64,000 bases of DNA from Terrimonas sp. (GTDB lineage: Bacteria; Bacteroidota; Bacteroidia; Chitinophagales; Chitinophagaceae), in assembly GCF_003075435.1 (NCBI RefSeq), contig NZ_QCZJ01000027.1, positions 1 to 64,000 of the forward strand. Direction: 5' to 3'. The translations under genes were made by a program, and so were the position numbers. The notes below the pieces were generated by a model that was not told the DNA's origin, made no database searches, and was given only the letters and a program-made list of their open reading frames with translations. Positions 384 to 21,846 of the stretch are shown here, in pieces (the stretch's first letter is position 1; the number at the start of each line of letters is the position of its first letter).

Positions 384-663
384 TTAAATAATACTACAAT
401 GAGGAGAAAATAAAAAAACAACTCCCCACGAGGAGTTATTCATTATCAATTAGTTAGCTCCACTTTTCTTCTTAGCTTAACGACTATGGTGGTGACACAT
501 ACCAGTTCAAAGCTGCTTGTTCCAGCCTGACAAGTTCTTACTCAAACGAATGCAGACATTTTTGTCGATTTAGGGAATGTCTACTGGTGTAAAGCTATTT
601 TTAAGAATTGAAGGAGTTCGTTGCATTAATCTGAAAATCAACCAACGTTTGTTAAATGAAAAG

Positions 664-695
664 AAAAAAGGATTACCGGTTAAAGTAATCCTTTT
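664..695. terminator. Hairpin next to the left direct repeat
   Basis: AAAAGGATTAC (about 667-677) pairs with GTAATCCTTTT (about 685-695) around an 8-nt loop. A-rich and T-rich flanks make it look like a bidirectional terminator. The right repeat has its own hairpin in the same position with a different stem sequence, so the hairpin-plus-repeat layout is conserved while the stem is not. Confidence 0.6.
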
Positions 696-747
696 CGTGA
701 TCCCTGTGGTACAAAACTCGAACCACTTTTTAGCGGATTTAAAGCTG
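690..747. repeat. Left 58-bp direct repeat, candidate attL
   Basis: These 58 bases recur at 17860-17917 in the same orientation with two mismatches (T701/A17871 and C726/T17896). Read on the minus strand, the repeat contains AAGTGGTTCGAGT, which resembles a tRNA T-arm, and an inverted pair GTGGT/ACCAC. I infer that the two copies bound a mobile element, because a serine recombinase lies just inside the other copy and a run of defence-type genes fills the interval. Confidence 0.65.
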
Positions 748-836
748 CTAAGTGAATTATAGATTTTAATAACACTTTCAAAGATTTGTGTTGATTTTAT
801 TAAATACTGTCGTGCTAATTCTATTAAATGATGTAC

Positions 837-3800
837 TTAGCCATGCTCTTGTTTTTCACTCTTTCTAGTTAATCCAATAATACAGGCAGAAACCATCTCA
901 TCCAGCGTATTTGAATACTGGCAATTTTCAAGCAACCATACCAGATGCTCACTATTAAGTTTCACATTTTTATGGGTTAGGTCTTTTAAAGTGTATATTT
1001 TCCGTCGCTTTGTTTTGGGAGCTTTGAGTTTATCCAGTTCGGGTATAAGAATATCTAACCAAAGGTCAGCAAATTGATCCAAGTCCACATAATTGTCACC
1101 ATCGGATTCTGGATTAAATAACATAAGCAACCTTTCAGCATTTAGCTTATCCTTCTCTGATTTGAATGTTGGTGTAAAATGCTTTAATATTTTTTCTCCT
1201 TGCTCCAAGGCCCTTCTTTTTTTCCAGGGTAATAAAGCCTTTTCCTGCCTCCGGAGTTTATAAATAATCTGTTTTATAGTAAGGGATGCATCAACCTCTT
1301 TCCACCTACGTTGGATAATGTCTTTTTTAGTTAAATAATGTTTCAATTTCTCTGTTATCTCTGAGAAGTCTGTATATCCCTTATTGTTTTCATCAATAAA
1401 TAGCCATTTAGGGCTCTTACTCGTGCTACCTCTAAAGGCAAAAAAGCACCAATTATTATCAGTTTCGACAAAACTAACAGCTGTTTTAACGGTAGCATCA
1501 ACATCCTTATATAAGTCATAAATTTTGTGATCAATTAATGAATTTTCTCCTTCAATCAAACTATACAGATCTTGAGTGCTATCACGTACACCTTCCCATT
1601 CATGTTCTTCTTCCGTATATTCATTATAAGCACGAATGACATTGTGCGTGTTAAGGTTAGCTTTTAAATACTTTTCATAAATAGATTGAGGGATAGCTAC
1701 ATTATTCCCAATTAAATCTTCAGTTAACAGTAATGTATCTACCATGCGCTTATCTCCGTTTAAAGAAAAAGCATCTGAGTCATCGGGCCACAAAACCGTG
1801 ATTTCCTTGTGCTCGCAATCCATTCGTTCCAAACGGCCAATCCTTTGTTCGACTATTCGTAAAACGCTGGGCATATCTAACAGTAAAAGGCAACTAGCGT
1901 CTTGGAGATTAATTCCTTCAGACATGGCATCAGAACACAGGGCAATAAGTTTTTCCTCTGTCTGATTACCCAAGGCAAAAAGCTGCATAACCTCATTTCT
2001 ATCTCGGGTATTATGTCCTGCTGCTACAATTGTTTTTATATCAGGATGTTTCTCGCGAATGAGTTTATACAAATAGTCCAAGGTTATAACAGTAGCATCA
2101 AACGCGAGTATTTTTCTATGAGCTTTAGTATTATCAATGAGCGTATCGGCCTTGCTTTGCTCACGTTTTCCACTTAATTGCTCGGCTAATGCTCCTATTT
2201 TTTGATAAAGGTGTATCTCATGATCACAAGCGGATTTATATAAGCGTTCGTCATATAACCATTGCTGTTCCTGACTCAATAGTGAATCGTCAACATGCTT
2301 TTTAGGAAGGCTTGAGCTACATTTCTTTATTTTACCTAAAATGTCTCCTGATGGATTTTTAGTTGAATGAAGACTAAATTTCTGATTAGCAGCATCTGTG
2401 CCGTGGAGATATTCAAAGAGTGCACAATGAGAGGATCGTAATTTGACTCTGACCATGTAGGCCGCTAATGCAGTAGCTGATGTAAACCTTTGTTTAATGT
2501 ACATGTTCTGATCTTCTTCTGTATGCAGATAATCTGGTACTTTCAGAACCTGTAAATAATGGATACCCTTTAACTCTAAAGTTAGAGACAAAATCTGTTG
2601 GGCTATAGTTTTATCTCCCTCCGTTTCTCCAGTACTATATACGATGGAATTTGTTTTCGGGTACTTGCAAGTATGCCCTAATCTGTTCTTATAATGCTCA
2701 GGCTCCCGATCAATCATTCGGTTCAACTCTTTTTTCGTACGCCGAACAATAAACTGGTTCACGTACCGCTTTAATTTCTCGAGATGATTTTTGTCTATGC
2801 CTTTCTTCCTGTTTTTCCTCAATTCGAGATAAGTATTTAGATCATCATCGCTTAAATTGTCAATATCCAACAGCTCAATTAACCTCAGCAAGTCATCTAC
2901 CTTTTTATTGATAGGCGTAGCGGTAGAAAGAATTACATGGCTGGAGCCCTTTGGAATAATGGCCTTGCTTCGCTTCGACAGAGGATGTAAATAATTGTGC
3001 GCTTCGTCTATTACCAGTATATCGGAATTTTGAATTGCTTTCTGCAGTACACGTTGACTTTTGTCGGAGCCAAGACTTAACCTGCCCATGGACTCAATTT
3101 TATTATAAAGAGCAAAATGCTCCTGTTCTCTTTCCCAGTTATCCATTACCTGCTTTGGACAGATAATTAAGGCATTAGAACGATCTTTCCTTCCGTTTTC
3201 CCATAGCCAATGGAACAATGTATAGGCAAGGGCAGTAGCAAATTTTGTCTTTCCGCTTCCCGTAGGATCCGCGACCAGAACCCTTCCCTGATCCTGTATT
3301 ATTTTCATCGCCCGGGCAATGCCTATCTTTTGTGAAGGCCAAAGGTTGTGCGTGATCAGTGCCTGATACAAAACAGGATAGTCCTGCATCCATTTGCTTT
3401 CTAATATTTCCGCTATGGCTCTTGCCAAAGCCTCCTCCCAGGTAGCGTCTTTTAAAAGCTTGCTAAATAGTTCAATCAGGTCTTTATTATAATCCTGTGC
3501 AATGCCATAGTAATATTCTGCAATGCGTTTGATGTCATTATACTGATTTTTCTCTACTGGTGACGATTGCAATTCAACCCGGATATTCGCCTCCGTTTGG
3601 TACACAGTGCCGGATTTACTGAAATTGGATGATCCGAGAATTGCGGCCTCATCGCCTACATAGATCTTTGCATGTAACCGATCCTTTGCTTTGAAATAAT
3701 AAATGCCGTTGTTGATCTTTTCTATAATATTTAAGATGGGCCCACATAATCGAATGCTTACGTTCTGCCTTACCCAATAATTTTTGATCTCCGTGGGAAG

Positions 3801-4079
3801 TGAATAATGAGGTAATCGCCTACTAACCCGCTCATCCGGGTCAAAACCGATAACGATACGAAGTTCCTGTAATTTTGGATAATCTGTCGCGCCAAAAACA
3901 TCAATCAGATTGGATAGCGATGTAAATCCCGTAAGAATTAAATAGTTATCCGAATTCTTTATGTCCTTCAGCAGCATATCACGTACTGCTCTTGCCTGCT
4001 CTTTTAGATTCAATGGAAAATCCTCCTGACCAGGCAGGTTAAGATGATAGTTGAAGTCGAAGAGGTTAGGGGCTTTCAC
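837..4079 (-). CDS. PLD-like nuclease fused to an SF2 (SNF2-like) helicase
   Basis: A 1080-residue fusion. The N-terminal 200 residues form a phospholipase-D-type nuclease module with one HxK motif (H136, K138, D143) followed by GSSN (149-152). A superfamily 2 helicase follows: Walker A DPTGSGKT (about 271-278), DEAH box (358-361), STAT motif III (385-388), motif V SDAMSEGINLQ (about 716) and motif VI EQRIGRLERM (about 744). The last 300 residues match nothing I recognise. PLD enzymes normally use two HKD motifs, so this one probably dimerises. Such fusions are typical of phage-defence loci, where they would unwind and cut foreign DNA. The only usable start is a GTG. It is the last gene of the minus-strand cargo run, 57 bp after the STAND gene. 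Confidence 0.8.
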   Translation of the reverse strand: MKAPNLFDFNYHLNLPGQEDFPLNLKEQARAVRDMLLKDIKNSDNYLILTGFTSLSNLIDVFGATDYPKLQELRIVIGFDPDERVSRRLPHYSLPTEIKNYWVRQNVSIRLCGPILNIIEKINNGIYYFKAKDRLHAKIYVGDEAAILGSSNFSKSGTVYQTEANIRVELQSSPVEKNQYNDIKRIAEYYYGIAQDYNKDLIELFSKLLKDATWEEALARAIAEILESKWMQDYPVLYQALITHNLWPSQKIGIARAMKIIQDQGRVLVADPTGSGKTKFATALAYTLFHWLWENGRKDRSNALIICPKQVMDNWEREQEHFALYNKIESMGRLSLGSDKSQRVLQKAIQNSDILVIDEAHNYLHPLSKRSKAIIPKGSSHVILSTATPINKKVDDLLRLIELLDIDNLSDDDLNTYLELRKNRKKGIDKNHLEKLKRYVNQFIVRRTKKELNRMIDREPEHYKNRLGHTCKYPKTNSIVYSTGETEGDKTIAQQILSLTLELKGIHYLQVLKVPDYLHTEEDQNMYIKQRFTSATALAAYMVRVKLRSSHCALFEYLHGTDAANQKFSLHSTKNPSGDILGKIKKCSSSLPKKHVDDSLLSQEQQWLYDERLYKSACDHEIHLYQKIGALAEQLSGKREQSKADTLIDNTKAHRKILAFDATVITLDYLYKLIREKHPDIKTIVAAGHNTRDRNEVMQLFALGNQTEEKLIALCSDAMSEGINLQDASCLLLLDMPSVLRIVEQRIGRLERMDCEHKEITVLWPDDSDAFSLNGDKRMVDTLLLTEDLIGNNVAIPQSIYEKYLKANLNTHNVIRAYNEYTEEEHEWEGVRDSTQDLYSLIEGENSLIDHKIYDLYKDVDATVKTAVSFVETDNNWCFFAFRGSTSKSPKWLFIDENNKGYTDFSEITEKLKHYLTKKDIIQRRWKEVDASLTIKQIIYKLRRQEKALLPWKKRRALEQGEKILKHFTPTFKSEKDKLNAERLLMLFNPESDGDNYVDLDQFADLWLDILIPELDKLKAPKTKRRKIYTLKDLTHKNVKLNSEHLVWLLENCQYSNTLDEMVSACIIGLTRKSEKQEHG

Positions 4080-4136
4080 TGTCTTTTACTTTAAGAAATA
4101 TACTTAAAATTTGGAGTTACAAGCTCATATCACTGA

Positions 4137-6413
4137 TTATATATCGACATCATCGAAGATGCTTCTTGATGTTGTGATAATTGTTTTTTCTTCTGTTATA
4201 TCTAATACTCTATCGGGCCTTTCATCTTTTTGAAAAAGATGTTCATCTACCCAGTTTTTAGCTTTTGATACTTCGTTCTCAATTACCTCAATAACATTTT
4301 CTTCTTCCCGAAATTCTTCTTGAAGAATATTCATTTTGTCGAAAAAATCCTCCATATGCTCTTCTGACGTATCATCATTATATGTTTTGAATTCGTCCTC
4401 TCTTTTTCTCCTTACTCCTTCAAGCTTCGGTAATAGCTGTGTTTTTATCTTTTGTTTCAGCTCTTCTAATTCCATTGTAGTAAAGACTTTTTGTAAATCT
4501 TCATTGCGCAGTACGTAAAGATCATCTCCCGAAATTGTAAAATGAGCTATATAGTTCACAAATTCCTTCCTGTAATTTTCCGGCAGGAGCTGTAGTTCAT
4601 TCAGCTTGATGACTAGATCAATGTCTTCGGAATAATGAAAAGACATAGAAGGTTTTACTATCTGCTCGAATATTTTAGGATTTTTTGAAATGTAGAGATT
4701 TATGAAATCTTTTGAAGAGCGGCGCGATAGAAAGGTGTAGATTTTCCTTTTGGCCCCCCATCTTGATAGGTAATCTGTTTTATATGCCTCGGATTCGTTG
4801 AATAACAGTATCCGTTCTAAAATAATATTGTACATGGCTTTGGGGACTATGATGGTCTTTTCAAGTCCGACATTGCCGCACGTTACCTGTTCCATCACTT
4901 TTTCAATATCTGTGCCGTATAGGTATATTTCTAATTGTTCAGGACTCTTTGAAACGATTCGTGCGTAAGCGTCGCCGATAGTCGGATGCTTAAAGCGCCA
5001 AACAGAGTTATCTTCAATGAAAGTATATTGTACCAAGCTATCCTTCATAGCCTCAAGGGCTTGTATACAGCTTCCTATGTCGCTCCCTAGTTTATTGATA
5101 GCGTCGTATTCATTTTGCTCCAATTCTAACGGGCTTACTACTTGACCATTGTTCATATATATAAGAGCAAGTGCTGCTTTGCAATCATTATCAAGTCCAC
5201 GAATAACATCCTCTAAAAAGCTCTCTTGTTTTTCAACAAATTGCATAAGTGAGTATTTAGAGATGTACATTTGTTTTGTAAAAGCAGGATCCGCCAGACG
5301 CCTGGCGGTTTCCGGTATAAATCGACTATTATTGGCTATGTCATTTAAAAATGGCTTCATCTTGGTAAGAAATTGTTTGGGGTGGCGTCCAAGCTTTAAA
5401 TGATTATAAAGGATCTGCTCCTTTTCAGGCATTGTTAGTTTATGAAGGTCAATTACCACCTGGCTTTCGTTAAATAGTGGGAATGCACCTTCTTTCAAAT
5501 CATTCCTCGCCCTCCTGTAGATATAGTCACGAGAAGTCATTACTATTTTAATTCCTTGTTTGATCATGGCCTTAACCTGGGGCAATATATGATTCCAATT
5601 ATTGACCAAATTTGATTCATATTGTGTAACCCCAAACGCGTCATCAATCCAGAATAACTGAGTAGGAGCATCAGAATTCCAATGTTTAATCACCAGTTCT
5701 GGAGTATCCAGTTTAAGCGTAAACAATTTCCATTGGTCAACAGCCGCCATAGCTAAAAGCGATGCAATCGTCGTTTTTCCTGCAGCAGGCTCTCCGATAA
5801 TAAGGACAAAACCATGGTCACTCAACGCTTTTGCAGCTTTATAATAGGCCGTAGTTATAACAATTTTGGAAAGGTCATCTCTCATAGAAAGCAACAACTG
5901 TCTTGCTTGTGAATAGGCACGCTCGTCCAAGATTTGACTGAGGTCTCCAAGCCCGTATATACGAGGAACTAGCGTCCTCAACCGTGTACTTTCATGAATC
6001 TGGGAATATATCCAATTGCTTCCAAACACTCTCCACGTTTTAACACCAAGAGCGGAGAGTTGTCTGCTGAACGTTGTTTCGAATCGTCCAGAAATACCTG
6101 CGTTTGTCATCAAGACATAACAGTCACACCGTTTTTCTAAGACTAGTCTTTCAATTTTAGAAAACTCATCATCAAGATCACTTAATCTTAAGTTTTTATC
6201 TGATTTATTTGTGAACTTACATTGTATAACAAAATTTCCTGTCAAATCTTCGCCGTCCTTTTGCTTCCAAATACCTGAAAAAGCACCGTCTTTACCAGCA
6301 TCATTGCTGTCTAGGAAAGTCATAACAGTTTGGCCCAGAATCTCTTGTGTAATTGTCAAGCATAATTTTTGAAATTCATACCAACCTAAAAGATGTAAAT
6401 CGTATTTAATCAT
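4137..6413 (-). CDS. Mrr-like restriction endonuclease fused to an nSTAND3-type NTPase
   Basis: About 758 residues. The N-terminal 80 residues carry an Mrr/PD-(D/E)XK pattern: FQKLC, then GKDG (D near 44), then FVIQCKF (QxK near 66-68). The NTPase that follows has Walker A GEPAAGKTT (about 209-217), Walker B LFWIDD (about 255-260) and a TSRDY sensor (about 295-299), the layout of nSTAND3 proteins. The charged helical C-terminus has no clear repeats. In such proteins the STAND module is thought to sense an infection cue and license the nuclease; that role is inferred here. An in-frame TTG lies 6 bp upstream of the ATG used as start. It lies 42 bp after the ABC-3C ATPase gene and 57 bp before the PLD-helicase gene, both on the same strand. 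Confidence 0.75.
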   Translation of the reverse strand: MIKYDLHLLGWYEFQKLCLTITQEILGQTVMTFLDSNDAGKDGAFSGIWKQKDGEDLTGNFVIQCKFTNKSDKNLRLSDLDDEFSKIERLVLEKRCDCYVLMTNAGISGRFETTFSRQLSALGVKTWRVFGSNWIYSQIHESTRLRTLVPRIYGLGDLSQILDERAYSQARQLLLSMRDDLSKIVITTAYYKAAKALSDHGFVLIIGEPAAGKTTIASLLAMAAVDQWKLFTLKLDTPELVIKHWNSDAPTQLFWIDDAFGVTQYESNLVNNWNHILPQVKAMIKQGIKIVMTSRDYIYRRARNDLKEGAFPLFNESQVVIDLHKLTMPEKEQILYNHLKLGRHPKQFLTKMKPFLNDIANNSRFIPETARRLADPAFTKQMYISKYSLMQFVEKQESFLEDVIRGLDNDCKAALALIYMNNGQVVSPLELEQNEYDAINKLGSDIGSCIQALEAMKDSLVQYTFIEDNSVWRFKHPTIGDAYARIVSKSPEQLEIYLYGTDIEKVMEQVTCGNVGLEKTIIVPKAMYNIILERILLFNESEAYKTDYLSRWGAKRKIYTFLSRRSSKDFINLYISKNPKIFEQIVKPSMSFHYSEDIDLVIKLNELQLLPENYRKEFVNYIAHFTISGDDLYVLRNEDLQKVFTTMELEELKQKIKTQLLPKLEGVRRKREDEFKTYNDDTSEEHMEDFFDKMNILQEEFREEENVIEVIENEVSKAKNWVDEHLFQKDERPDRVLDITEEKTIITTSRSIFDDVDI

Positions 6414-6455
6414 TTTCAAACATATCCAATTTTAGTTCTGTAACAGTCGATAACT

Positions 6456-8750
6456 TTATGATATCTCTTTGAGATTTAACCGTTTTTCATTGAGATTATA
6501 GTTTTTGAATTTATACCTCATGAAGGCAGACATCATATCTTCGTGAGTGGACATGACAATCTGATTATCACTAAATTCGTTTCTAAGAAGGTCAATAAAT
6601 CCATACATATTTAACTCATCCATCGTTTGAACCGGATCGTCAATCAACACTATTTTATTCTGCGAATACTTTTTGTGAAGCGCCAATGTGAAGGCAATAA
6701 TGAGGGCAGATAGCTGACCAGAACTCATGGTAAAGACAGCATCGTATGTTTTATTTGAGTCTGTCTGAAATCTTATGCCATCTTTTTCCGAAAAAATAAA
6801 TAGCCCAATTCCTCCTTGAAAGGATTGCATAATCCTTCCAGAGTATACATGAAAAACTATTTCTATATCCTTAATAATCTTTTTCTGGTAAGATTTTAAT
6901 GAAGCATTATAGATGTTTTTTAACCCATTTAATTTTTGAGAAGTTTCTCTGGCTTCATCTCTGCTTTTAGTCACCTCAAGTAGTTTTGTTGATTTGTCTT
7001 GCAAAAGTTGGTTTTGGTTTAAAGACCATTTGTGAGATAGGTACCTTTTCTTTGCTTCTATATTTTCAACGGGGACAGCATCAATTTGATTGAATTCATT
7101 GTCAAAATACTCGCGGAAATAGGCCAAAAAATAAGTCTCGATCAGCTCCATCTCGGAGTCATCTTTTAAAGGAGTGATTGCATTTTTAAATCTATCGAAG
7201 AGTGCTGAAACATCAAGTAGTTGTTCGTTACCTAGATATTGTGAATAGTCCACTTTAAGGAACTCAAAAGATTTTATTACATCATTAAAGCGGTTAATTT
7301 CTGTTTCGAGTAACCTCGTTACAAATTCTTCATTGTAATTAACCTTAGATAAGTCTTCCTTTATAATGTCAATTAAGTGTTTAACGGTTCCTGATTTAAA
7401 CGCTACAAAAGATTCTTGAAGCCTGTTACTTTTATCAGAATTAATTACTTTGATTTGCTCTGATTTATTTTCGATTTGAAGAAAAAGTTCCTCTATGTTA
7501 CCCCAATCGTAACCACATAAGATACATTCACTAATCGAAGTTCCTGCTTCTCTTAAAATTGTGATTTCACCTATTAATTCATTTCTCGATCTGGAAATAT
7601 CTGAGTATATTCTATCCAGTCCCGAAAGTTCCTGGAAGCCAGACAAAAGTTCTTTTTTTGTTGCAGCAAAATCAACTTTAAGCTCAGCCGGGATAAATTC
7701 ATAAGTTTCTAAATCTATTGTCTGATCAAGCGTATTATTATTTAGAGATTCTAGTTGGTTAATCAAGTTTTGTAGTTGGGATACCCTTGTGCGTAAATCA
7801 CGTAATTCGTCCTTTTTTGGCAAAAAATTGTAAAATTTGAAGAAATCCTGGGTCAAATCTTCATTTTCCAGTAGATAATCTACCGCCCTGTTTATTCTAT
7901 ATTGATTAAATAAGTTTTTTCGCTCAATAAATATTTTTAAACGTTCCAGAACACCATCATTACCCACTACATCTAAATAGTTAAACGAATTTGTGTCTAC
8001 GTCTTCTTTATCCCAACTCAACTCTTTTTTTTCAAAAAGTCTAATGTAAGTGGACGGTTCTTGCTCTTCAGTTAGACTTTCTTTCAACCTATCTATCTCT
8101 TCAGCTAGACTTTCTGCTTCGCTGAAGTTATTATTAAAAATAGTGTCGATTCTCTTTTTTAAATTTTCAATTCTTTTAATTTTTTCTTCAAATTCTTTAA
8201 GGTCAAATAAATGACCAATATGGCTCTTTCTGGTACTATCCTTATGTTTCAGTAGAAAAAGACATTCTTCCTGTTCTACATAATTGAGAAACTGGAAATT
8301 TGAGTTATAGTTCTTGCCCAGTATCCCTGCCAAGAATAGTTCCTCGTTGTCAACAGGGCTTTTTTCTACTGAAGAAAAATCATCTTTTGTGAACAGTTTG
8401 TATATTGAAAAGTCTATATAAGGACTTATGGTGTCAACTTGTGCAAGGCGCTCCAATACATAAATTTGCTCATTTTTAGCAAACTCGATCGTAATTACGA
8501 TATCTCCGTCCTGTGCATTTGCATGCTGGAAGGGGTTCTCTGAAAAGCTTTGTCTTCCATCAATCAATTTTAACTTTAAATCATTATACCGTCTTATTTT
8601 GCCGGTAAAAACTAATTCAATGGCATCATAAATGGTTGTTTTGCCAAATCCGTTTGGACCGTCAAATACAATGATGTCTGAAGAGTTGAAGTCTAAAGTA
8701 ATATCTTTAAATACTTTAAAGTTCTGGATTCTGATTTTGTTGATTTTCAT
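6456..8750 (-). CDS. SMC/Rad50-like ATPase, ATPase component of an ABC-3C system
   Basis: 764 residues with a split ABC ATPase head around a long coiled coil. Walker A is GPNGFGKT (31-38), the Q-loop is near 160, the signature is MSSGQ (675-679), Walker B is VLIDDP (701-706) and the switch histidine is H736. The usual Glu after Walker B is Asp. CILC (409-412) sits mid-coil where Rad50 has its zinc hook, so dimers may join at the coil tips. The start overlaps the preceding gene by 35 bp, which implies translational coupling. With the two upstream genes it fits the ABC-three-component layout (ATPase, middle component, effector with a C-terminal domain) described for prokaryotic conflict systems. 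Confidence 0.8.
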   Translation of the reverse strand: MKINKIRIQNFKVFKDITLDFNSSDIIVFDGPNGFGKTTIYDAIELVFTGKIRRYNDLKLKLIDGRQSFSENPFQHANAQDGDIVITIEFAKNEQIYVLERLAQVDTISPYIDFSIYKLFTKDDFSSVEKSPVDNEELFLAGILGKNYNSNFQFLNYVEQEECLFLLKHKDSTRKSHIGHLFDLKEFEEKIKRIENLKKRIDTIFNNNFSEAESLAEEIDRLKESLTEEQEPSTYIRLFEKKELSWDKEDVDTNSFNYLDVVGNDGVLERLKIFIERKNLFNQYRINRAVDYLLENEDLTQDFFKFYNFLPKKDELRDLRTRVSQLQNLINQLESLNNNTLDQTIDLETYEFIPAELKVDFAATKKELLSGFQELSGLDRIYSDISRSRNELIGEITILREAGTSISECILCGYDWGNIEELFLQIENKSEQIKVINSDKSNRLQESFVAFKSGTVKHLIDIIKEDLSKVNYNEEFVTRLLETEINRFNDVIKSFEFLKVDYSQYLGNEQLLDVSALFDRFKNAITPLKDDSEMELIETYFLAYFREYFDNEFNQIDAVPVENIEAKKRYLSHKWSLNQNQLLQDKSTKLLEVTKSRDEARETSQKLNGLKNIYNASLKSYQKKIIKDIEIVFHVYSGRIMQSFQGGIGLFIFSEKDGIRFQTDSNKTYDAVFTMSSGQLSALIIAFTLALHKKYSQNKIVLIDDPVQTMDELNMYGFIDLLRNEFSDNQIVMSTHEDMMSAFMRYKFKNYNLNEKRLNLKEIS

Positions 8751-9414
8751 CCGGCAATACTGATTTTAATTTTTCAAGAATGGCTTCATCTGTCATAGCA
8801 CTAAAGTCTTCATCACTCAGCGAAAAAAAATTTTGCTCTAACAAATCATTAAGCTGATTATTCTCGACTGACTTTTTATTGATTTCCTCTAATGATTTGA
8901 GGTTATTGGTCTGCGTGATCTTTATTTTAATGAATGGTATTTTGATGGCCATTCGGTATACTAATGATTCGAAATCATTAGCATCGAAATACATTTTATG
9001 TTTTTCAAATATTGTATCTGTCAAAATCAATGATTCAATGGTGGGGAGTGCTATTGAATCTCCAATTGTGTCACTTAAATTTTTCAGTTCCACTTCTGTG
9101 TAATAAAGAATACTCTTTTTAAAGTGGTACGGATTTTCCTCAATTTGTAACAAGCTTTCTGGTTTAATATTGGAAATTGCGTCAACCTTGTTTAAAACAA
9201 GCAGATTAGCGTTCTTATCAAATGTTGGCTCTTGGATAATTTCTTTTGCTTTTACAAAAAGCTCAATTTGTTCACTTATAATCTTGTCAAGATCATCATA
9301 CTGAACAATCACCCAGTAATTTTGCTGCTCTTTCAGTGCATAGATTTTAAAGTCTGTATTTGCTTTTTCTTCAAGCCCAGCCTCTTCGAATATTCTACTA
9401 ATTAGATTAATCAT
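8716..9414 (-). CDS. Probable ABC-3C middle component
   Basis: A 232-residue soluble protein with no catalytic motif that I can see. Its middle is beta-strand-rich and its C-terminus is acidic and disordered-looking (LPDENQQNQNPEL). Length and position fit the middle component of ABC-3C systems, a small protein encoded between the effector and the SMC-like ATPase and thought to bridge them. It overlaps the upstream gene by 8 bp and the ATPase gene by 35 bp, so the three should be made in a fixed ratio. The assignment rests mainly on context. Confidence 0.6.
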   Translation of the reverse strand: MINLISRIFEEAGLEEKANTDFKIYALKEQQNYWVIVQYDDLDKIISEQIELFVKAKEIIQEPTFDKNANLLVLNKVDAISNIKPESLLQIEENPYHFKKSILYYTEVELKNLSDTIGDSIALPTIESLILTDTIFEKHKMYFDANDFESLVYRMAIKIPFIKIKITQTNNLKSLEEINKKSVENNQLNDLLEQNFFSLSDEDFSAMTDEAILEKLKSVLPDENQQNQNPEL

Positions 9415-10702
9415 TTAATTTATTTTTTGCTGTTTCGAGATCAATTAAGCTAACCTTTTTCCATTGGGTTATTCTATTTCGTTTTTCATCGTCATCTATC
9501 CCTAGGTCGCCGGTATTTAAGTGACTTACATTATTTGCACAAGCTTCTATATCATCGACATTGCATTCGCTCGTGATAAGATAATCCGAGTTAAAAGGAA
9601 CATCTACCATCGTATTAAATGCTGTTTTTAATATGCGTTCACTCGCATTTTTTTTGTTAGCATCTGAATTAGAATAGGTTATCGAAGTCGGGTAATATTG
9701 CTTTTTTTCGGAACACGTCCAACCAATTCCATTTCCATTATTTGATTCTTTAATTGTCAGCAGTATTTGGAAAAAGGCGTCTTTCATTTCGTCGTCACTC
9801 AAACAATCCCCATATTCCTGTAAATCACGATACGATATTTCTTTGTGTGGTCTAATACTCTGTAAAAAAGCCTTAAAATCGGTGGAATGGAGAGCGTTGA
9901 ACAGATATAGATAATTGTCCATTTTTGTCCTGATATCATCCGTCAACTGCTTTTCTTCACAATCCAAACAGAATTCTTGGTAATAGCGGTTTAGATTAGA
10001 TTTGATTTTGCCCTCAAAATATTCCTCATCTTGAATGATAGCTGTGATATCTTGGCGTATTGCATCGAGGAAATCTGACAAACAAATTGGATTTTCGTAA
10101 GCTGCGACAGCGATAGCCTCTCCTCCATGGTTCTTAGCATGAATGTATGTTACCTTATCAGCTATTTTCTTCTCCAATATATCATATAATATTTGTATGT
10201 TATTGTTGTTTTGATGCCCTGGAATATTATATTTCTGAAGTGCAATAACTATAATTGCCTTTACCTTATTGTCAATTTCTGGTAATGGACAAAAGCCATC
10301 GTTATTATCATAGCAATATATTTTTAATCTTGGATGTTGATTTTCTATTTCATCATTTGTAGATGTATTTTGGGTTGATAAATGAAAATAGGCCTCTACA
10401 TCTGCTATGCCGGTAGCTACTTTCTTTTGTTCAAGTTGATTAAAGTCAGCCTCATAAGTTGAATAATGATTGCTTTTGACTGCTTTGACTTGGTGCAATG
10501 TTATAGGTATAATATTCCCTTGTTGATTATATTTAACAATTGCAAAATCCTCCAAAGAATCAAGTTGTAAGTGTAATGCATTTATCTCATCTGGACTTTT
10601 TTCAGCTATAAGCTTTAAAGCATGATAAAGTGCCACTCTTCCCTGATATATAAACCCACTCCAAGTTGCTGCTGCTGTATGTGGTAGTATTTGTTTCGCC
10701 AT
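9407..10702 (-). CDS. ABC-3C effector: Cap4/Mrr-like nuclease domain plus C-terminal domain
   Basis: About 431 residues from the ATG; an in-frame TTG lies 9 bp upstream. The N-terminus reads ATWSGFIYQGRVAL, the G-F-x-Y-Q motif seen at the start of Cap4/DUF4297-type dsDNA nuclease domains. LDSLEDFAIV and then ITLHQVKAVK follow, which fit the acidic residues and the QxK of a restriction-endonuclease fold. The remaining 300 residues probably form the domain that docks on the middle component. In ABC-3C systems this protein is the effector, so this copy would cut DNA when the ATPase senses invading DNA or a DNA-end structure. It starts the three-gene overlapping set and lies 36 bp after sbcC. Confidence 0.7.
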   Translation of the reverse strand: MAKQILPHTAAATWSGFIYQGRVALYHALKLIAEKSPDEINALHLQLDSLEDFAIVKYNQQGNIIPITLHQVKAVKSNHYSTYEADFNQLEQKKVATGIADVEAYFHLSTQNTSTNDEIENQHPRLKIYCYDNNDGFCPLPEIDNKVKAIIVIALQKYNIPGHQNNNNIQILYDILEKKIADKVTYIHAKNHGGEAIAVAAYENPICLSDFLDAIRQDITAIIQDEEYFEGKIKSNLNRYYQEFCLDCEEKQLTDDIRTKMDNYLYLFNALHSTDFKAFLQSIRPHKEISYRDLQEYGDCLSDDEMKDAFFQILLTIKESNNGNGIGWTCSEKKQYYPTSITYSNSDANKKNASERILKTAFNTMVDVPFNSDYLITSECNVDDIEACANNVSHLNTGDLGIDDDEKRNRITQWKKVSLIDLETAKNKLND

Positions 10703-10738
10703 AATGGTCAAATTGTTTCTTTACTTTTATTGTTTTAA

Positions 10739-13700
10739 TCAGATTCCCATCACCTCCACCTTACTCCTCCCACTCTGCTGTTTACTCACCTTGATCTGTA
10801 CAGGTATCCGCTCCGTCATTTCCTGCACGTGTGAGATGACGCCTACCTTGCGCCCCTGGTTGTGCAGGCGTTCGAGCGCATCCATGGCGATATTGAGCGT
10901 GGCGGGATCGAGCGAACCGAAGCCTTCGTCGATGAATAGGGATTCCACCTTCATGCGGCTGGACGAAAGTGAGGCCAGTCCCAATGCCAGTGCCAGTGAT
11001 ACGAGGAAGGATTCTCCACCCGAAAGGGAATACACGGTACGTACTTCATCGCCCATATCCTGGTCTATCACCTGCAGGCCCAACGTGTTTGGTATACGTT
11101 GTAGCAGGTAGCGATTGCTAAGCATGCCCAGGTGTACATTGGCGAAACTGATCAATACGTCCAGGGTATATTCTTGTGCTATGAGCCGGAACTTTTTGCC
11201 ATCTGCGGAGCCAATGATGTCGTTAAGCTTAGCCCAGTTTTCGGCAATAAGCTCTTTAGCGTTAATGATGCCCAGCAGGTCGCCTATTTTTTGCTTATTG
11301 GCAATATCCTGTTGTAGCTGGAAACCGATCTCATTCTTTCGCTGTACCTGCTGTTGCAGGTCTGTTCTCACTATATTCAGTAATTCGGTCAGCGCTTCTG
11401 CACTTCGTTCTGAAAGCCGTTGCTGTTCATGTTGCTGCAGCTGTGCCGTGCGTTCCTGTAATATGGATTGTGCTTGTGTAATGGCATCATCTATCGCCCT
11501 CAATGCGGTGCGTTCTGTTTCTATCCAGGCGGCATCATACGTCAACAATTGCGATAATCGCTCTTCATCCAATGCCAACGTATTGCGGCTATTAAATGCG
11601 GCAAGCCATTCGTGTATCTTTTGAGCAAAGGTTATAGCATGTTGCCGTAAAGACGCTATATCTTTTTCGGTCTGTTCACTTTGTGTGAGGGTACGGGTAA
11701 GACTTGTTTGTAACAGGTCACGTACCGTCTTAATTTTTTCCAGTGCCTGCTGTGCTGCTGTTACAGCCTGCTTTAAACCTTGCTCTACGGTTGCGGCAGC
11801 CTCACCATTAAAGATGGCTTGACGCTTTTGGTTAAGGATATCCTGTTGTTTCTTTACAGTGCTAAGTGTGTCTTGTTTTTTTTGTACATCCACTGAAGCA
11901 TGGTGTAGTTGTCCTTCTGTTGCTTCGAGGGTTGCCGTCAATATGCCATGCTGCCGGAAATCTCCTTCCAGCTTTTGGGTAGCGGTTTTCCATTGTTCAG
12001 CAAAGTCGCCGATGCGTTGCAGAAATGCCGCAGGATCAGCTTTCCAATTGGTAAACCAACCCGGTGCAGTAAAGTAAACAGATAAGTTTTGTTCTATTGT
12101 GGCAAGCGCCTGGTTGTTGTTTTGCTGCTCTTTATGGTATTGCGCCTCTTGTTCCTGTAAGGACTGCAGGTGCCGGTCTGTATCTTTTACGGAATTGCTG
12201 TTTTCGTTCTGCTGGCGTTCCAGCTCGTTTATAGTGTTTTGCAAAGCATCCAGTTCCTGCTTTTTTGTGGCATACAACAGTATCTGTTGTTGCAGGTGTT
12301 TTTGTTGCGCCCGTGCATCCTGTAATTGCTGTACCAGCCACGTTGCTTTTTGTTGGTTGGGTATTTCAGCAGCATGAGTGTATATGGCAAAGCCTTCCCA
12401 TGTTTTTTGATGGGCAGCAAATGCTGTTGTTTTAGTGCTTGTTTCCTGTTCCTGCAAGGCGATTGTTTCTTTTAAATAGTTAACCGTTTCTTGCAGACTG
12501 CTTTCTGTTTGCAGGCAGCTTGTATAAGCTTTATCATTTTGCTGGTGTGCCGCTTCCAGTTCTGCTAACACATGATTCAATTGGGGCTGTTCTGCAACGT
12601 AGGGATGCTCCAGGCTGCCACAAACGGGGCAGGGCTCTTCAGGGACTAATTGTAATCGAAGGGATTCCACGTTTTCAGCGGCCGCAAGACGTGCTTTATC
12701 CAGCATACGGAGCGATGCATCCCGCTCAGCGGTGGCAATTACTAACTGCGCTGCTGCCCGTGCGAGTGCCTGCGATTTATCGTTTAGTTCGCTTTTATTG
12801 TCGGTGAGTTTTTGCTTTAGGGTATCTAGGTCTGCCTCGCCGTGGGATAATATTTTCCAGTGCGCTTCCGCTGCAATCATATCTTCTATGCGTGAGTCAG
12901 TAGACACCTTTTCTTTTTCTAAAGATGCAATGGGTATAGCCACTAAAGCCTCCGAAGCTTCGATATGCTTTTTCTTTTCTACCTGCAATTGTTGGACAAT
13001 AGCTGCCGATATTGTTTTCAACCCGGTTTTTACCTGTTTCGCTTCGGCTATTGAGGTTTGTGTATGTTCCAGATGAGGTAACAATACTTGTGCAGCATCC
13101 CGCAGTGTCCCTGCATCCCCAAGCTTTGCACTGATGAGGTTGTGATTTTCAGCAATGGGCTGTCGTGCGCTATTGTCTTGTTTCCATTGCTGTAATTGCG
13201 AAATATACGCAAGTAATTCTTCGGATTGCTGCTGCTGTGCCTGTAGCTGTTGCTGCAGTTGCTCATGATTAACTTCTGCGGTCTTTACTTCTGTTGCCGC
13301 CTGATTTACCTGTTCTGCTTTTTCTTTGATCTGTACATCCAACGCCCTTGCTTCTTCCAGGTGCGGTAGCGCTGCTTCCTGCTTCTGTATAGCGGCGGCC
13401 ACTGTTTCATTTGCGGTTTGCAATTGCTTATCCAATTCTTCCTGCTGCTGTTGCAGGCTATCAAGCGTTGTCTGTAAATCTTGCAGCGATGCTGTTTTTT
13501 CGGCCAGTTGCTTTTCGGCCGCCTGTTGTCCATCCACCCAAGTCCGGGTAGGCTGCACTTGTTCCACCTGCTTTAGTTGTTGCTCACGACCTGCTGCATT
13601 TTGTTTGGCTTCAATGGCCTGTGCCTGTGTTGTATATGCGGCACTGACGCTGGTTTGTAACACCGCAAGCTGGGTATACCATGCAATTTCATTGATTAAC

Positions 13701-14473
13701 GCCTCCGCTTCTTTTTCCTGTATGATTATGTTTTGTTCAAGTGTTGCTTTTTGCTGCTTTAGATCTTCTACTTCTTCTGATGTCAGTGTGAGAATGCCTT
13801 CCCGTTGCAGGTTTAGATCTTCCAACTCTCTTTTTTCTTTACTGTAATTGACAAATATCTGCTTAGATATTTCAGAATAGATACGGGTTCCCGTAAGCTT
13901 TTCCAAAAGAGCAGATTTTTCGTCTTTGGCTGCTTTGAGAAAAGCTGTAAAATCCCCCTGGGCAAGTAATACGGATCGGGTAAACTGTTCAAAATTCAAT
14001 CCCACCAACCGTTCTATTTGTTCCAGTATTTCATTCTTTCTGCCAGGGATATCTGTGTTGGTGTCAATGTTTTTTAAAGTAATGGAATATTGTTGCAGGC
14101 TTCCATCAGCCTTATCCCTTGCTCTTCGCACCCGCCAAGTAGCCCTGTAGCGTTGCCCATCAACACCTGCAAAATCCACTTCTGCAAACCCTTCGCCGGT
14201 GCCGTCTCTTAATATACCCCGCACATCTCCCTGGCTGATGGCGCTTCCCTGCACATCGGTTATTTCGATGCCGGATTCCCTAGCCTGCAAGTACCTCGGC
14301 GTTTTGCTATATAATGCCAGACAAAGTGCGTCCAGGATAGTAGATTTGCCTGCACCAGTAGGGCCAGTAATGGCAAATATCCCTGCGGAACAAAGAGGTT
14401 CACTACAGAAATTTATTTCTGTATTTCCTTCGAGAGAAGCAAGATTTTTGATTCGAATGGCCAGTATTTTCAT
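10739..14473 (-). CDS. sbcC: Exonuclease SbcC, ATPase subunit
   Basis: 1244 residues, longer than the roughly 1050 of E. coli SbcC, with the extra length in Gln-rich coiled coil. It shows Walker A GPTGAGKS (37-44), a zinc hook CPVC (about residues 615-618), the ABC signature SLSGGES (about 1148) and Walker B LFIDEGFG (about 1179). With SbcD it forms the Mre11-Rad50-like nuclease that opens hairpins and trims blocked or palindromic DNA ends. The gene begins 2 bp after sbcD and ends 36 bp before the ABC-3C effector start on the same strand, so the defence genes may share its transcript. Codon use is more GC-rich than in the genes after it, which suggests a separate origin. Confidence 0.95.
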   Translation of the reverse strand: MKILAIRIKNLASLEGNTEINFCSEPLCSAGIFAITGPTGAGKSTILDALCLALYSKTPRYLQARESGIEITDVQGSAISQGDVRGILRDGTGEGFAEVDFAGVDGQRYRATWRVRRARDKADGSLQQYSITLKNIDTNTDIPGRKNEILEQIERLVGLNFEQFTRSVLLAQGDFTAFLKAAKDEKSALLEKLTGTRIYSEISKQIFVNYSKEKRELEDLNLQREGILTLTSEEVEDLKQQKATLEQNIIIQEKEAEALINEIAWYTQLAVLQTSVSAAYTTQAQAIEAKQNAAGREQQLKQVEQVQPTRTWVDGQQAAEKQLAEKTASLQDLQTTLDSLQQQQEELDKQLQTANETVAAAIQKQEAALPHLEEARALDVQIKEKAEQVNQAATEVKTAEVNHEQLQQQLQAQQQQSEELLAYISQLQQWKQDNSARQPIAENHNLISAKLGDAGTLRDAAQVLLPHLEHTQTSIAEAKQVKTGLKTISAAIVQQLQVEKKKHIEASEALVAIPIASLEKEKVSTDSRIEDMIAAEAHWKILSHGEADLDTLKQKLTDNKSELNDKSQALARAAAQLVIATAERDASLRMLDKARLAAAENVESLRLQLVPEEPCPVCGSLEHPYVAEQPQLNHVLAELEAAHQQNDKAYTSCLQTESSLQETVNYLKETIALQEQETSTKTTAFAAHQKTWEGFAIYTHAAEIPNQQKATWLVQQLQDARAQQKHLQQQILLYATKKQELDALQNTINELERQQNENSNSVKDTDRHLQSLQEQEAQYHKEQQNNNQALATIEQNLSVYFTAPGWFTNWKADPAAFLQRIGDFAEQWKTATQKLEGDFRQHGILTATLEATEGQLHHASVDVQKKQDTLSTVKKQQDILNQKRQAIFNGEAAATVEQGLKQAVTAAQQALEKIKTVRDLLQTSLTRTLTQSEQTEKDIASLRQHAITFAQKIHEWLAAFNSRNTLALDEERLSQLLTYDAAWIETERTALRAIDDAITQAQSILQERTAQLQQHEQQRLSERSAEALTELLNIVRTDLQQQVQRKNEIGFQLQQDIANKQKIGDLLGIINAKELIAENWAKLNDIIGSADGKKFRLIAQEYTLDVLISFANVHLGMLSNRYLLQRIPNTLGLQVIDQDMGDEVRTVYSLSGGESFLVSLALALGLASLSSSRMKVESLFIDEGFGSLDPATLNIAMDALERLHNQGRKVGVISHVQEMTERIPVQIKVSKQQSGRSKVEVMGI

Positions 14474-14475
14474 CG

Positions 14476-15720
14476 TTATGCTTCCATTTCACTTACTTCC
14501 TGAGCCACCTGCTGAAACAGTTTTACCAGATCCTCGGGAATTGGGGTGTTATATTTATTTTGATACACTTTATGTAATACATCTAGTGGTTTTAGCTCAT
14601 TGAGCTGCGTTCGATCTGCCGCTGTATTTTTTTCCGAATCTGTTAACACAATATTATAGCGTACATCAATTTTCGCCAATCGTATATTTTTACCGGCAAG
14701 TGCTGTTTCCACCTTATGCCGAAGACCAGGTTCGGGGCCATCTAATAGCACCCGTACCTCTAGGTACGGAGCTATATTGTAGCTTCCTTCCAATGGTGGC
14801 AATTGTTGCAGTGAAGCAAGAACGTCTACCAGTGAGCTATGAACCGTTGGCACCTGTATTAGAGGGACCGTAACAGGAATCTCAATTGATTTAAAGCTTT
14901 CTATTTTCTCATCTATTAAATCAAATACAATCACCTGATGCTTGTAATTGGTTTCTGAAAAAGACATAGGTAATGGGCTTCCGCAATAACGGATGTGTTC
15001 CTTGCCGCCAATTCTTTGTGCTTTATGGATATGTCCCAACGCGACGTAAGAAATGCTTTCGTGAAATGCTGATGCCGAAATGCACTCTACACCACCCATG
15101 ATCAATCGCTCCATTTTGTCTATATCACTTATTTCAGCCTGTTGGGTATGTAAATGTCCCATTACGATTATGGCCTGGCCAGCTTGCCTTTTTGAATCTA
15201 CATATTCAAAAGCTTCTTTATAAAACGCTGCTACACCTTCGGAATATGGATTATCACAATTGGCGATTAAGGGATAATCCCCCATTCTTAGAAAAGGGGC
15301 AGCGATGCACCATGCTTTTATATTACCATCGTTACCCTTTAACGGTATCATGATTTTACTGTAATCAATCGTCCCATTTTCGTCTTTTTCTATCAAGCCT
15401 ATAATATGAATATTGGAAGATTCCAATAGTGGTTTGGGAGACTCCAACCTTGCCGGAGAATCATGGTTCCCTGCTGTAATAATTATTTGTAGATCAGCAT
15501 TTGCCTTTACGGCCTGATTTAAGAAGGAATAAAACATTTTGATGGACGCCGCAGACGGATTAGATAGATCGAATACGTCGCCGCTGATTAGCAGAATATC
15601 TATATGCTCATTGATAAGAGTTTCCAACAGCCAATTCAAGAATTGCTGATGTTCGTAAGTGCGGTCGTACTCATGGAAAAGTTGACCAATGTGCCAATCG
15701 GCGGTATGTAGAATTTTCAT
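14476..15720 (-). CDS. sbcD: Exonuclease SbcD, nuclease subunit
   Basis: 414 residues with the full calcineurin-like phosphoesterase motif set: HTADWHIG (5-12), ISGDVFD, GNHDSP, GHLHTQQ and ALGHIHKAQ. These ligate the two manganese ions of Mre11/SbcD nucleases. The C-terminal part matches the capping and SbcC-binding region. It is the first gene of the minus-strand run. The 111-bp gap to the divergent serine recombinase gene (start 15832 or 15865) must hold the promoters for both directions. A second chromosomal sbcCD could exist elsewhere, in which case this pair would be accessory. Confidence 0.93.
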   Translation of the reverse strand: MKILHTADWHIGQLFHEYDRTYEHQQFLNWLLETLINEHIDILLISGDVFDLSNPSAASIKMFYSFLNQAVKANADLQIIITAGNHDSPARLESPKPLLESSNIHIIGLIEKDENGTIDYSKIMIPLKGNDGNIKAWCIAAPFLRMGDYPLIANCDNPYSEGVAAFYKEAFEYVDSKRQAGQAIIVMGHLHTQQAEISDIDKMERLIMGGVECISASAFHESISYVALGHIHKAQRIGGKEHIRYCGSPLPMSFSETNYKHQVIVFDLIDEKIESFKSIEIPVTVPLIQVPTVHSSLVDVLASLQQLPPLEGSYNIAPYLEVRVLLDGPEPGLRHKVETALAGKNIRLAKIDVRYNIVLTDSEKNTAADRTQLNELKPLDVLHKVYQNKYNTPIPEDLVKLFQQVAQEVSEMEA

Positions 15721-15864
15721 AATGGACTAAGGTTGTATCTAAAATTGCTCGATGAAATTGCAAGCAATTTGCTTATAAAATAATAATATAATATCAAAAG
15801 AATACATATTTCAGGTTTTTTTATTAAAAAAATGAAGGCAGAGCCATTTTCGATAAAATTCAAA

Positions 15865-17541
15865 ATGAAAAAAGCAGATTTATACATTCGCGTCAGCACA
15901 GATGAGCAAGCTGAAAAAGGATTTTCGGTAAAATATCAGGAAGACATGTTGCGTCGACATTGCCTGATAAATAGTATCCAAGTTCAAAATGTCTACTTTG
16001 AGGATTTTCCCGCAAGGAATTTCAAACGTCCAACATGGTCCTCTTTATTGGTGGGTTACAAAACCCACAAAGCCCATAGACCGGATTATGTTCTTTTTAC
16101 TAAATGGGACAGGTTTAGCAGAAATATAGCCGAAGCCTACCTGATGATTAAAAAGCTTCAGGATATAAATATCATTCCGCAAGCCATAGAACAGCCATTG
16201 GATATAAGTATTCCTGAAAACAAGATGGTCCTGGCAATTTACCTGGTAACGCCTGAAGTAGAAAATGATATACGTTCCTTGAATGTAAAGGAAAAGATGC
16301 AAAAAGCACGTGCGATGGGTAGATGGATGGGAAGTGCTCCTATTGGGTATCGAAACACGCAATCGGCGACTGGAGAAAAATATATAACGATACAAGAACC
16401 TGAAGCGACATTGATGCGAGAAGCATTTGAACAGGTTAGCCTGGGATTATTTAGTATCCGTGAAATCCACAGAATGTCTGTAAAAAAGGGTCTGGTTTGC
16501 TCGTTAAATAACTTCTGTCAGGCACTACGAAATCCGGTTTACTGCGGAAAAATCATCATAGATAGAAAACAGGTTATACCACAGATGGCAAGTGGCAAAC
16601 ATGCAAAAATCATTTCGCAACTGCTTTTCGACAAAGTACAAAATGTCCTTAAAAACAAAAGCAGGATGATAACGAATGCAAGCAAGAAAATCGCCAATGA
16701 AATGTTACCCTTCAGGGGATTTCTTTATTGCCCTCTCTGTTTTCAAAAGCTAACAGGCAGTAGATCAAAAGGGAGAACGAATTGGTATTTTTATTATCAC
16801 TGTAATTGTGGCTTCAGAATAAGAACAGAAAAAGTGCATAACTCCTTTATCAGCATGATAAAATCATTAAAGCCAAATGTAGAATACAACATATTATTCC
16901 ATTCAATTCTTAGAAAAAATTACAAGGCCTTTTCTTTTTTAACCATGATCAATCAGCATCGCACTGTCAAAAAGATTGAAGAGTTAGAGGATCATATGAT
17001 AACAGCACGTTCGTTACTTCTTTCAAAAGATATTGATGCGCCGGAATATTATAAACTAAAAAAGGAGTGCCAGACAAAAAGGGAAATGTTGAAACGTAAA
17101 ATCGACAATTCATCTATTTCCCTTAAACTTTGGGAAGGAAGACTCGACGCCATGTCAGGAACACTGTCTTCGCTTGATTACATATACGAAAGCGCAAGCA
17201 TTGATCAAAAAAGACGGTTGATCACCTTACTGTTTAGAAATCCGATATTATGGAATGAGAACTGCTTTAGAAATTTACTTGAAGATAGTGTGAAGACCAT
17301 TTATAATCATCTCATAAAAACACCAATTACTAATGAACCCAATTTAATAGAACTGGATGCACTGTCAGCAGACTATAAACTGATTATCGAAATAGAGCAA
17401 CGAAGAGGAGTGCATCATTCAGCTTCCCAGATTCAGCATACCCTGTCATTTTTATATGATCTAGCGAACTTTACAGTTGAGTTTTACAACAGTCAATTCA
17501 TCCTTAAGAATACGAATTTACCCACCTATAATTATGATTAA
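15865..17541 (+). CDS. Large serine recombinase, probable element integrase
   Basis: The start is placed at the ATG giving KKADLYIRVSTDEQ, because serine resolvase domains begin with Y-x-R-V-S; an in-frame ATG at 15832 would add 11 residues. The catalytic serine is in YIRVS, and FTKWDRFSRN is the conserved active-site arginine region. A recombinase domain follows, then a zinc ribbon (CPLC ... CNCGF, about residues 295-330) and a coiled-coil C-terminus, all typical of large serine integrases. It reads away from the cargo genes and ends 320 bp before the right direct repeat, the usual place for an integrase. It probably inserts and excises the 690-17917 block. Confidence 0.9.
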   Translation: MKKADLYIRVSTDEQAEKGFSVKYQEDMLRRHCLINSIQVQNVYFEDFPARNFKRPTWSSLLVGYKTHKAHRPDYVLFTKWDRFSRNIAEAYLMIKKLQDINIIPQAIEQPLDISIPENKMVLAIYLVTPEVENDIRSLNVKEKMQKARAMGRWMGSAPIGYRNTQSATGEKYITIQEPEATLMREAFEQVSLGLFSIREIHRMSVKKGLVCSLNNFCQALRNPVYCGKIIIDRKQVIPQMASGKHAKIISQLLFDKVQNVLKNKSRMITNASKKIANEMLPFRGFLYCPLCFQKLTGSRSKGRTNWYFYYHCNCGFRIRTEKVHNSFISMIKSLKPNVEYNILFHSILRKNYKAFSFLTMINQHRTVKKIEELEDHMITARSLLLSKDIDAPEYYKLKKECQTKREMLKRKIDNSSISLKLWEGRLDAMSGTLSSLDYIYESASIDQKRRLITLLFRNPILWNENCFRNLLEDSVKTIYNHLIKTPITNEPNLIELDALSADYKLIIEIEQRRGVHHSASQIQHTLSFLYDLANFTVEFYNSQFILKNTNLPTYNYD

Positions 17542-17828
17542 GCGGTTCGATGTATATTCAAGCCGCTCTGAACTTCCGTTAAAACTTATTGTCTATTAAT
17601 GATTTAAGTGGTTCGAGTCCCAAGAGGTCATCCCTATGGGACTAGGACATAAATGTGTTATTTTATCTCGGAAAGTCTTTGTAATCAACTTATTTTAAGT
17701 CAGTTAAATTATCAAGTAATTACAGATTTTGGTTCGATGTATAAAATGAGTGCCTTTGAAAACTTTTCAGGATAAAGAAAAATGGAAAATATGAAAATAC
17801 CTGGCAATTAGATACTTACTGAAAAACA

Positions 17829-17867
17829 AAAGGGACAAGATGAAAAATTTCATTTTGTCCCTTTTCG
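17829..17867. terminator. Hairpin next to the right direct repeat
   Basis: AAAAGGGACAAGATGAAA pairs with TTTCATTTTGTCCCTTTT across a 3-nt loop, with one G-T wobble. The T-rich 3' side fits a rho-independent terminator and could stop transcription from the recombinase. It sits against the right repeat exactly as another hairpin sits against the left one. Confidence 0.65.
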
Positions 17868-17917
17868 TGAACCCTGTGGTACAAAACTCGAACCATTTTT
17901 TAGCGGATTTAAAGCTG
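17860..17917. repeat. Right 58-bp direct repeat, candidate attR
   Basis: The partner of 690-747, in the same orientation with two mismatches. The sequences diverge on both sides, which sets its limits. The interval between the copies is about 17.1 kb. Large serine integrases usually leave a shared core of only a few bases, so a 58-bp identity is longer than expected and could instead reflect a duplicated insertion target. Confidence 0.65.
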
Positions 17918-19718: not shown

Positions 19719-19728
19719 GGTAATTACT

Positions 19729-20883: not shown

Positions 20884-20900
20884 TGCTTTAAATTTTAAGA

Positions 20901-21119: not shown

Positions 21120-21137
21120 GACTTTTCGTTTTACAGG

Positions 21138-21782: not shown

Positions 21783-21846
21783 TGTTCAATTTTTTTTGTT
21801 ATTAGAATTTCTATACAGCCCTGTATAGTTTTGCCTCAATATTGTT

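Follow-up and report, generated by a model that had tools for sequence, protein, structure and literature searches.

Gene content of the island

The window, a 64,000-nt stretch of Terrimonas sp. DNA taken from contig C27 (66,285 bp), carries near its left end a block of eight genes between two direct repeats. As the first-pass annotation had it, the rightmost of these genes is a serine recombinase on the plus strand (15832-17541), here called LSR1, and the other seven all lie on the minus strand (837-15720).

837-4079, minus strand: PLD-like/SNF2 helicase, 1080 aa (Pfam SNF2-rel_dom 2.1e-18, Helicase_C 1.7e-12, PLDc_2 3e-06; DpdE/DrmD-like in PADLOC)
4137-6419, minus strand: nSTAND3 NTPase, 760 aa, PADLOC candidate PDC-S73 (Pfam 7e-42; PADLOC 1.3e-31)
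6456-8750, minus strand: LmuB-type SMC-like ATPase, 764 aa (PADLOC LmuB 4.9e-68; Pfam AAA_23)
8716-9414, minus strand: ABC-3C middle component 1, 232 aa (Pfam MComp1 1.6e-15)
9407-10711, minus strand: LmuA-type protein with CTD1, 434 aa (Pfam CTD1 7.7e-47; PADLOC LmuA 2.3e-19)
10739-14473, minus strand: SbcC-like ATPase, 1244 aa (NCBIfam SbcC 1.6e-125, 420 bits, under the cut-off of 750)
14476-15720, minus strand: SbcD-like nuclease, 414 aa (NCBIfam TIGR00619, 189 bits, over the cut-off)
15817-17869, plus strand: right-end module of LSR1, about 330 bp and a terminator-like hairpin (99.8% identical to locus L093, 89-91% to L092 and L091)
15832-17541, plus strand: LSR1 serine recombinase, 569 aa (Pfam Resolvase 5.5e-18, Recombinase 8.7e-07)

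The seven minus-strand genes had all been described as nuclease or ATPase types, and Pfam agrees for five (the SNF2/PLD helicase, nSTAND3, AAA_23, SbcC-like and SbcD-like genes) but places the other two as ABC-3C MComp1 and CTD1. Judged from these profiles, the cargo probably acts against phages. By domain content LSR1 is a large serine recombinase, with Resolvase and Recombinase both over the Pfam cut-off and zinc-ribbon-like cysteines; direct reading gives the motifs YIRVST and, in the zinc-ribbon-like part, CPLC..CNC, and the best NCBIfam matches are CcrB and XisF (E ~4e-23). Its stop codon falls about 330 bp short of the attachment site described below. A second tRNA-arm-like stretch (17612-17655, GTGGTTCGAGTCCC...GTCATCCCTATGGGAC), also present in L091-L093, separates LSR1 from the right border and is perhaps an old attachment site.

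Borders of the island and its neighbours

The 58-bp direct repeats with two mismatches were recovered exactly as first reported, at 690-747 and 17860-17917 (56/58 identical), and no third full copy occurs in the 6.18-Mb, 82-contig genome, where all other matches are partial. Each repeat does have a hairpin of its own, folding at 666-695 (-11.7 kcal/mol, z -3.4) and 17826-17868 (-23.0 kcal/mol, z -7.0); both lie mostly just left of the repeats, with a few bases of overlap, and look like terminators that each unit would bring to the tRNA. A point absent from the first-pass annotation is that the island is one unit of a tandem array at a tRNA-Lys gene, beside an ICE, the order being unit X, island, ICE (about 87 kb) and tRNA-Lys.

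561-699, plus strand: right end of left neighbour X with terminator-like hairpin 666-695 (match in genome G151; fold)
690-747, plus strand: repeat copy 1, the junction of X and island, with exchange placed within GTGA 697-700
697-762, plus strand: left end of the island, an attachment half-site and coding tail VIPVVQNSNHFLADLKLLSEL up to the stop
17826-17868, plus strand: hairpin of the island right end (fold)
17860-17917, plus strand: repeat copy 2, the junction of island and ICE, with exchange placed within GTGA 17867-17870
17867-17941, plus strand: left end of the ICE, a half-site and tail VNPVVQNSNHFLADLKLLTDISAT up to the stop, the proposed 3' end of the ICE recombinase gene
17870-64000, no strand: ICE, continuing to the end of C27 and then on C17 to tRNA-Lys(TTT) at C17:38938 (synteny with G004:C5)

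The right neighbour is, judged by synteny, an ICE, with a relaxase (3.8e-28), a coupling protein (T4SS-DNA_transf, 9.2e-24) and, beside the tRNA at its end, two serine recombinases; the ICE recombinase is 42% identical to LSR1. Contig C27 aligns with G004:C5 at 90% over 18121-24416 and at 99.96% over 24325-66171, and C17 continues the same stretch of G004:C5 at 97.9% over 40.2 kb, past the tRNA-Lys at C17:38938, so that C27-C17 is the probable contig order on synteny. The 99.96% identity of the ICE over 41.8 kb (24325 onward) to that of G004, a genome of the same genus, points to recent transfer. Two diverged copies of one gene run lie inside the ICE at 34184-37414 and 52941-56170, with about 66% DNA identity in matched pieces. 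On the other side, unit X cannot be read further because the contig ends at position 1; the minus-strand frame at 1-330 is one that we take, by eye, to resemble an IS-type transposase.

Junctions in other genomes and the point of exchange

A scan of named genomes with LSR1 returned four loci. One, in a Ferruginibacter MAG (L093), matches LSR1 at 100%, and its module is 99.8% identical from 15817; another, in the isolate Pseudoflavitalea rhizosphaerae KACC 18655 (L092), matches at 88%, and its module is 89% identical from 15861. In both, what comes after the module is the reverse strand of tRNA-Lys(TTT), CCCTTTTCGTGATCCCGCTGGGACTCGAACCC, instead of the repeat. The left flank of the window (561-704) likewise recurs in G151 (L202) at 82% over 149 columns and there runs into tRNA-Lys(TTT) at GTGATCCC, and a shorter similar end (39 nt) leads into tRNA-Arg in G009. 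Two pairs of junctions with exchanged partners can thus be compared, unit X with tRNA-Lys in G151 against X with the island in the window, and the island right end with tRNA-Lys in L092/L093 against the same end with the ICE in the window; a further unit, Y, is joined to tRNA-Lys in G011 and, in G004, to the ICE (97.9% over 1490 nt). Behind tRNA-Lys(TTT), the sequence differs between most of the 12 genus genomes, G000 and G004 being alike.

Because GTGA is common to all junctions, we place the exchange at these bases, the very end of the tRNA gene; only GTGA is resolved because one left end, that of the window's left junction, shares A/T with tRNA-Lys. An exchange at GTAC (17882), as taken from the end of the L092/L093 homology, was rejected, since tRNA-Lys and the left ends already differ before it. 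Measured in six left ends, TCGAAC stands 17 bp from GTGA; measured in three tRNA-Lys sites, the distance is 12 bp. In serine integrases, the zinc-domain motif is shifted by 5 bp between attP and attB, according to the excerpts of PMC3783163 used here, and at our locus, too, the half-site motif of the element site lies farther out than that of the target, by 5 bp; as against the sites covered by those excerpts (PMC3783163), only one half-site is compared here, the other half being variable hairpin sequence. In G005 (L043, G005:C18:54725-54799), the junctions at 9.8-39 kb lie 5' of a tRNA-Lys(CTT).

Both repeat copies are, on this evidence, attachment-site junctions. The borders first given as 690-17917 hold for the repeats, but the element itself spans about 700-17869 (17,170 bp), because the exchange point falls inside the repeats. 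To the right of that point, the two copies belong to different units, one to the island and one to the ICE. The length of 58 bp, flagged earlier as odd for a serine recombinase, now likely has a cause in two alike left ends: the island and the ICE share the same coding tail beside the short tRNA-end junction.

The left-end tail and the ICE recombinase gene

The tail common to the left ends of the island and the ICE, VQNSN..L.DL..L and stop, belongs to a segment that reads as coding up to its stop codon, V(I/N)PVVQNSNHFLADLKLL..., and the most likely reading makes it the 3' end of the ICE serine recombinase gene, the frame of which extends across the crossover point. As it stands, that frame reads NGTSRLNFDLSHMV and then IPLGLEPRTLTLKVLCSTN to the stop, with the last part being antisense tRNA-Lys, and the hairpin falls inside it. 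This arrangement recurs among relatives: out of 34 ORFs read for related recombinases, 29 continue into the antisense strand of a tRNA (Lys, Pro, Arg, Val or Leu), and the exceptions are L031 (the first recombinase of the G004 ICE pair), L033, L168, L179 and L193. The 34 ORFs came from 35 loci (7 in the genus and 28 of the best matches; one locus gave no ORF) and so represent closer homologues rather than a random draw; matches to the recombinase clade occur in 109/394 family genomes. In two more distant recombinases, L029 (which adjoins tRNA-Met) and L030, the stop codon is a TGA with ACC after it, as though that stop came from the end of an RNA gene.

Relatives of the tail were found in 13/394 family genomes and, mostly with weak E-values, in 17/395 phylum genomes. 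None lies in an open frame of more than 82 aa among the 394 family genomes, and matches in frames of more than 200 aa among the 395 phylum genomes are weak, with E-values of at least 0.26. The idea that the tail ends a chromosomal target gene was accordingly rejected, no longer open frame with the tail being present in 12 genus genomes (<=79 aa) or in the 394 family genomes (<=82 aa). Where 100 kb could be followed in each of four complete-contig genomes, two had in-frame left ends, at distances of 17.4 and 23.2 kb from the end of the recombinase, and two had none within 100 kb; in G178 a wrong ORF served as the recombinase. The left end in G295 is a tandem junction at which a frameshifted recombinase remnant is joined in frame to the tail, KRKKSVLSCLVTPSIQFSNKFLGDLTRLAKLAV and stop. 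A full-length recombinase fused to the tail was found at none of five viral loci, plasmids gave no recombinase match at E 1e-40, and the tail itself had no match in plasmids or phages.

The tails also carry a coding signature. A 15-base DNA pattern hit 14 places, against 6 for a reversed control, and nearest-neighbour differences among the tails found in this way fell 18/3/21 by codon position (chi-square p 0.0013, with linked changes treated as independent). Scored by codon, this frame has 27 synonymous changes to 8 non-synonymous ones, the other two frames having 11/23 and 1/32; the test took all 14 DNA-pattern sites (11 distinct, 8 nearest-neighbour pairs), without two weaker places, G001:C3 (decayed) and G002:C13. 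A larger set of 28 distinct tails gave 41/21/75, a sample biased because many of them came from a peptide search, and the four LSR1-type left ends alone gave 15/9/26 over all pairs, though LSR1 stops about 330 bp before the site.

These counts bear on whether the tail is DNA only, an attachment half-site whose coding look is inherited or accidental, with the antisense-tRNA reading a harmless read-through. The spacing of TCGAAC would fit a half-site, and the tail is kept by islands and satellites whose recombinase does not use it or that have none at all; against this, the codon-position and synonymous bias extends over 48 nt from a conserved Gln codon, beyond the TCGAAC-GTGA spacing, and homologues are open across the site in the matching frame. 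We consider a DNA-only tail unlikely, if the best of the alternatives.

Sister islands and the mobility of the element

Three sister islands with a related recombinase, one of them broken, carry other defence systems, and a fifth copy lies beside copper genes. The G005 island holds an AbiL-type pair, PDC-S06, an LmuB-like protein and Wadjet JetABCD (9/11 ORFs scanned), and the Pseudoflavitalea island holds an AbiL/RloB pair, Avs3a/b and an MksE-like protein, with 3/8 of its proteins lacking a match in either library. The G004 island, whose LSR1 is broken, has proteins related to the AbiL ATPase and to JetA-D of G005. The window cargo has no protein in common with that of G005 or Pseudoflavitalea at E 1e-5. 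The Ferruginibacter copy (L093) adjoins RteC and copper-type genes with no PADLOC hit among seven, which rules out LSR1 as a vehicle of defence genes only; a left end that lies about 75 kb away on that contig might belong to it. A unit of 9.9 kb flanked by two junctions is present in both G005 (L041/L042, G005:C18:9828-19740) and G004 (L046/L047, G004:C18:20177-30089), with the same succession of ORF sizes and no recombinase match inside; it is possibly a satellite.

Matching junctions elsewhere and three sister islands with related ends bear out the original proposal of one mobile element with defence-type cargo and its own recombinase. The island might instead be fixed, with old junctions remaining and nothing excising now; such a state would agree with the broken LSR1 of the G004 sister, with the decayed repeat copy in G001 and with the fact that no circle or excision product was seen. 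LSR1 is intact in the window, though, and the 99.8% identity of its module to a copy in another genus suggests that this module, at least, moved recently; we regard fixation as improbable, somewhat more so than a DNA-only tail. That the repeats arose by an unrelated process (duplication or homologous recombination), with the recombinase a passenger, is very improbable: repeat copies without a recombinase, set beforehand as evidence against a single element, do occur in part (G001, G002 and G009, no LSR1 match at E 1e-10) but read as junctions of the same integration system, so that the element stands, while LSR1 lies at the tRNA-side end of the island in the window, L091, L092 and L093, and junctions change partners at the same four bases.

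Proposed mechanism

From the junctions, frames and coding signature observed here, we propose, with a probability of roughly 0.83, a defence island within a tandem array at tRNA-Lys(UUU), with exchange at GTGA and an ICE recombinase gene that runs across the site. The right end of the island (LSR1 and its terminator-like hairpin) is of a type that, in two other genera, lies directly against tRNA-Lys; here the ICE intervenes. Exchange would occur within GTGA, and since these are the last bases of the tRNA gene, the tRNA would stay whole and gain a new downstream hairpin. In each junction, the left unit's hairpin is followed by GTGA and then by the left end of the unit to its right. The island would be moved by LSR1 or, in trans, by the ICE recombinase. 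The left-end tails match, in frame, the missing 3' end of the ICE-type recombinase gene, so that integration would swap the C-terminus of the ICE recombinase for antisense-tRNA codons and excision would restore the tail, which would be translated in the circle.

As a gene arrangement, this C-terminal swap is well supported; as a switch, we offer it as a hypothesis only, possible and still doubtful. The tail carried on the circle might complete the recombinase, the antisense-tRNA codons gained on integration might alter or stop it, and the tails of neighbours might complete it again, linking excisions. A tail-completed recombinase in the circle could integrate, no separate directionality factor would be needed, and islands and recombinase-less units might keep their tails so that the recombinase to their left is completed again. 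If true, excision of neighbours would be linked, defence cargo included.

The array suggests a way in which Chitinophagaceae stack and swap anti-phage genes at tRNA genes, with changing defence cargo between a shared right-end module and a shared left end. The control of direction in serine integrases is a standing question; a recombinase with a C-terminus rewritten by its own reaction would be a natural experiment.

Comparison with known systems

Archaeal suicidal integrases of the SSV1/pTN3/pT26-2 type are tyrosine recombinases for which integration costs half the protein, and in the excerpted part of the review self-disrupting recombinases are called exclusively archaeal (PMC8371274). The likeness to that account (PMC8371274) is an attachment site within a recombinase gene, which holds here for the ICE recombinase only; the difference is that a serine recombinase is concerned and that a C-terminal tail is exchanged. 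The cargo resembles Lamassu/ABC-3C in having LmuA-type, LmuB-type and MComp1 genes in one run, with LmuA and LmuB both called by PADLOC, and differs in the SbcC/SbcD-like, nSTAND3 and PLD-SNF2 genes that follow in the island.

The target of SCC elements is rlmH; here it is tRNA-Lys instead, the island has one recombinase, and LSR1 scores 81.8 bits against the CcrB equivalog, whose cut-off is 900. The likeness to SCC with CcrA/B, as far as the excerpts of PMC3146451 go, lies in serine-recombinase islands with changeable cargo.

The Dehalococcoides ssrA islands, in the same excerpts (PMC3146451), are tandem islands behind a stable-RNA gene with repeats of its 3' end, and their DsiB is a CcrB-like serine recombinase on the RNA-gene side; our locus likewise has tandem units, island and ICE, toward tRNA-Lys. 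There, dsiB overlaps the attachment site, and its full function, the authors suggest, may depend on the circular form or on a neighbouring island that carries the 3' fragment (PMC3146451). Here, the ICE recombinase gene overlaps the site and the island's LSR1 does not, stopping about 330 bp before it. The target described in that part of the paper is tmRNA (ssrA) with a 20-bp repeat, as against tRNA-Lys here, and of the integration module given there (DsiA and RecF-, ParB- and Mom-like proteins) Pfam finds none among the eight island genes (PMC3146451). In comparison with those excerpts (PMC3146451), the 3' fragment is found here at left ends and with a coding signature, which makes the 2011 remark testable as a rule for a common recombinase clade, namely that an element stores the 3' end of its recombinase gene at its opposite end. 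Nothing closer was found in the literature searched than the systems in the excerpts of PMC3146451, PMC8371274 and PMC3783163. The island works like SCC and the Dehalococcoides ssrA islands, yet by the defining features of each it is a member of neither.
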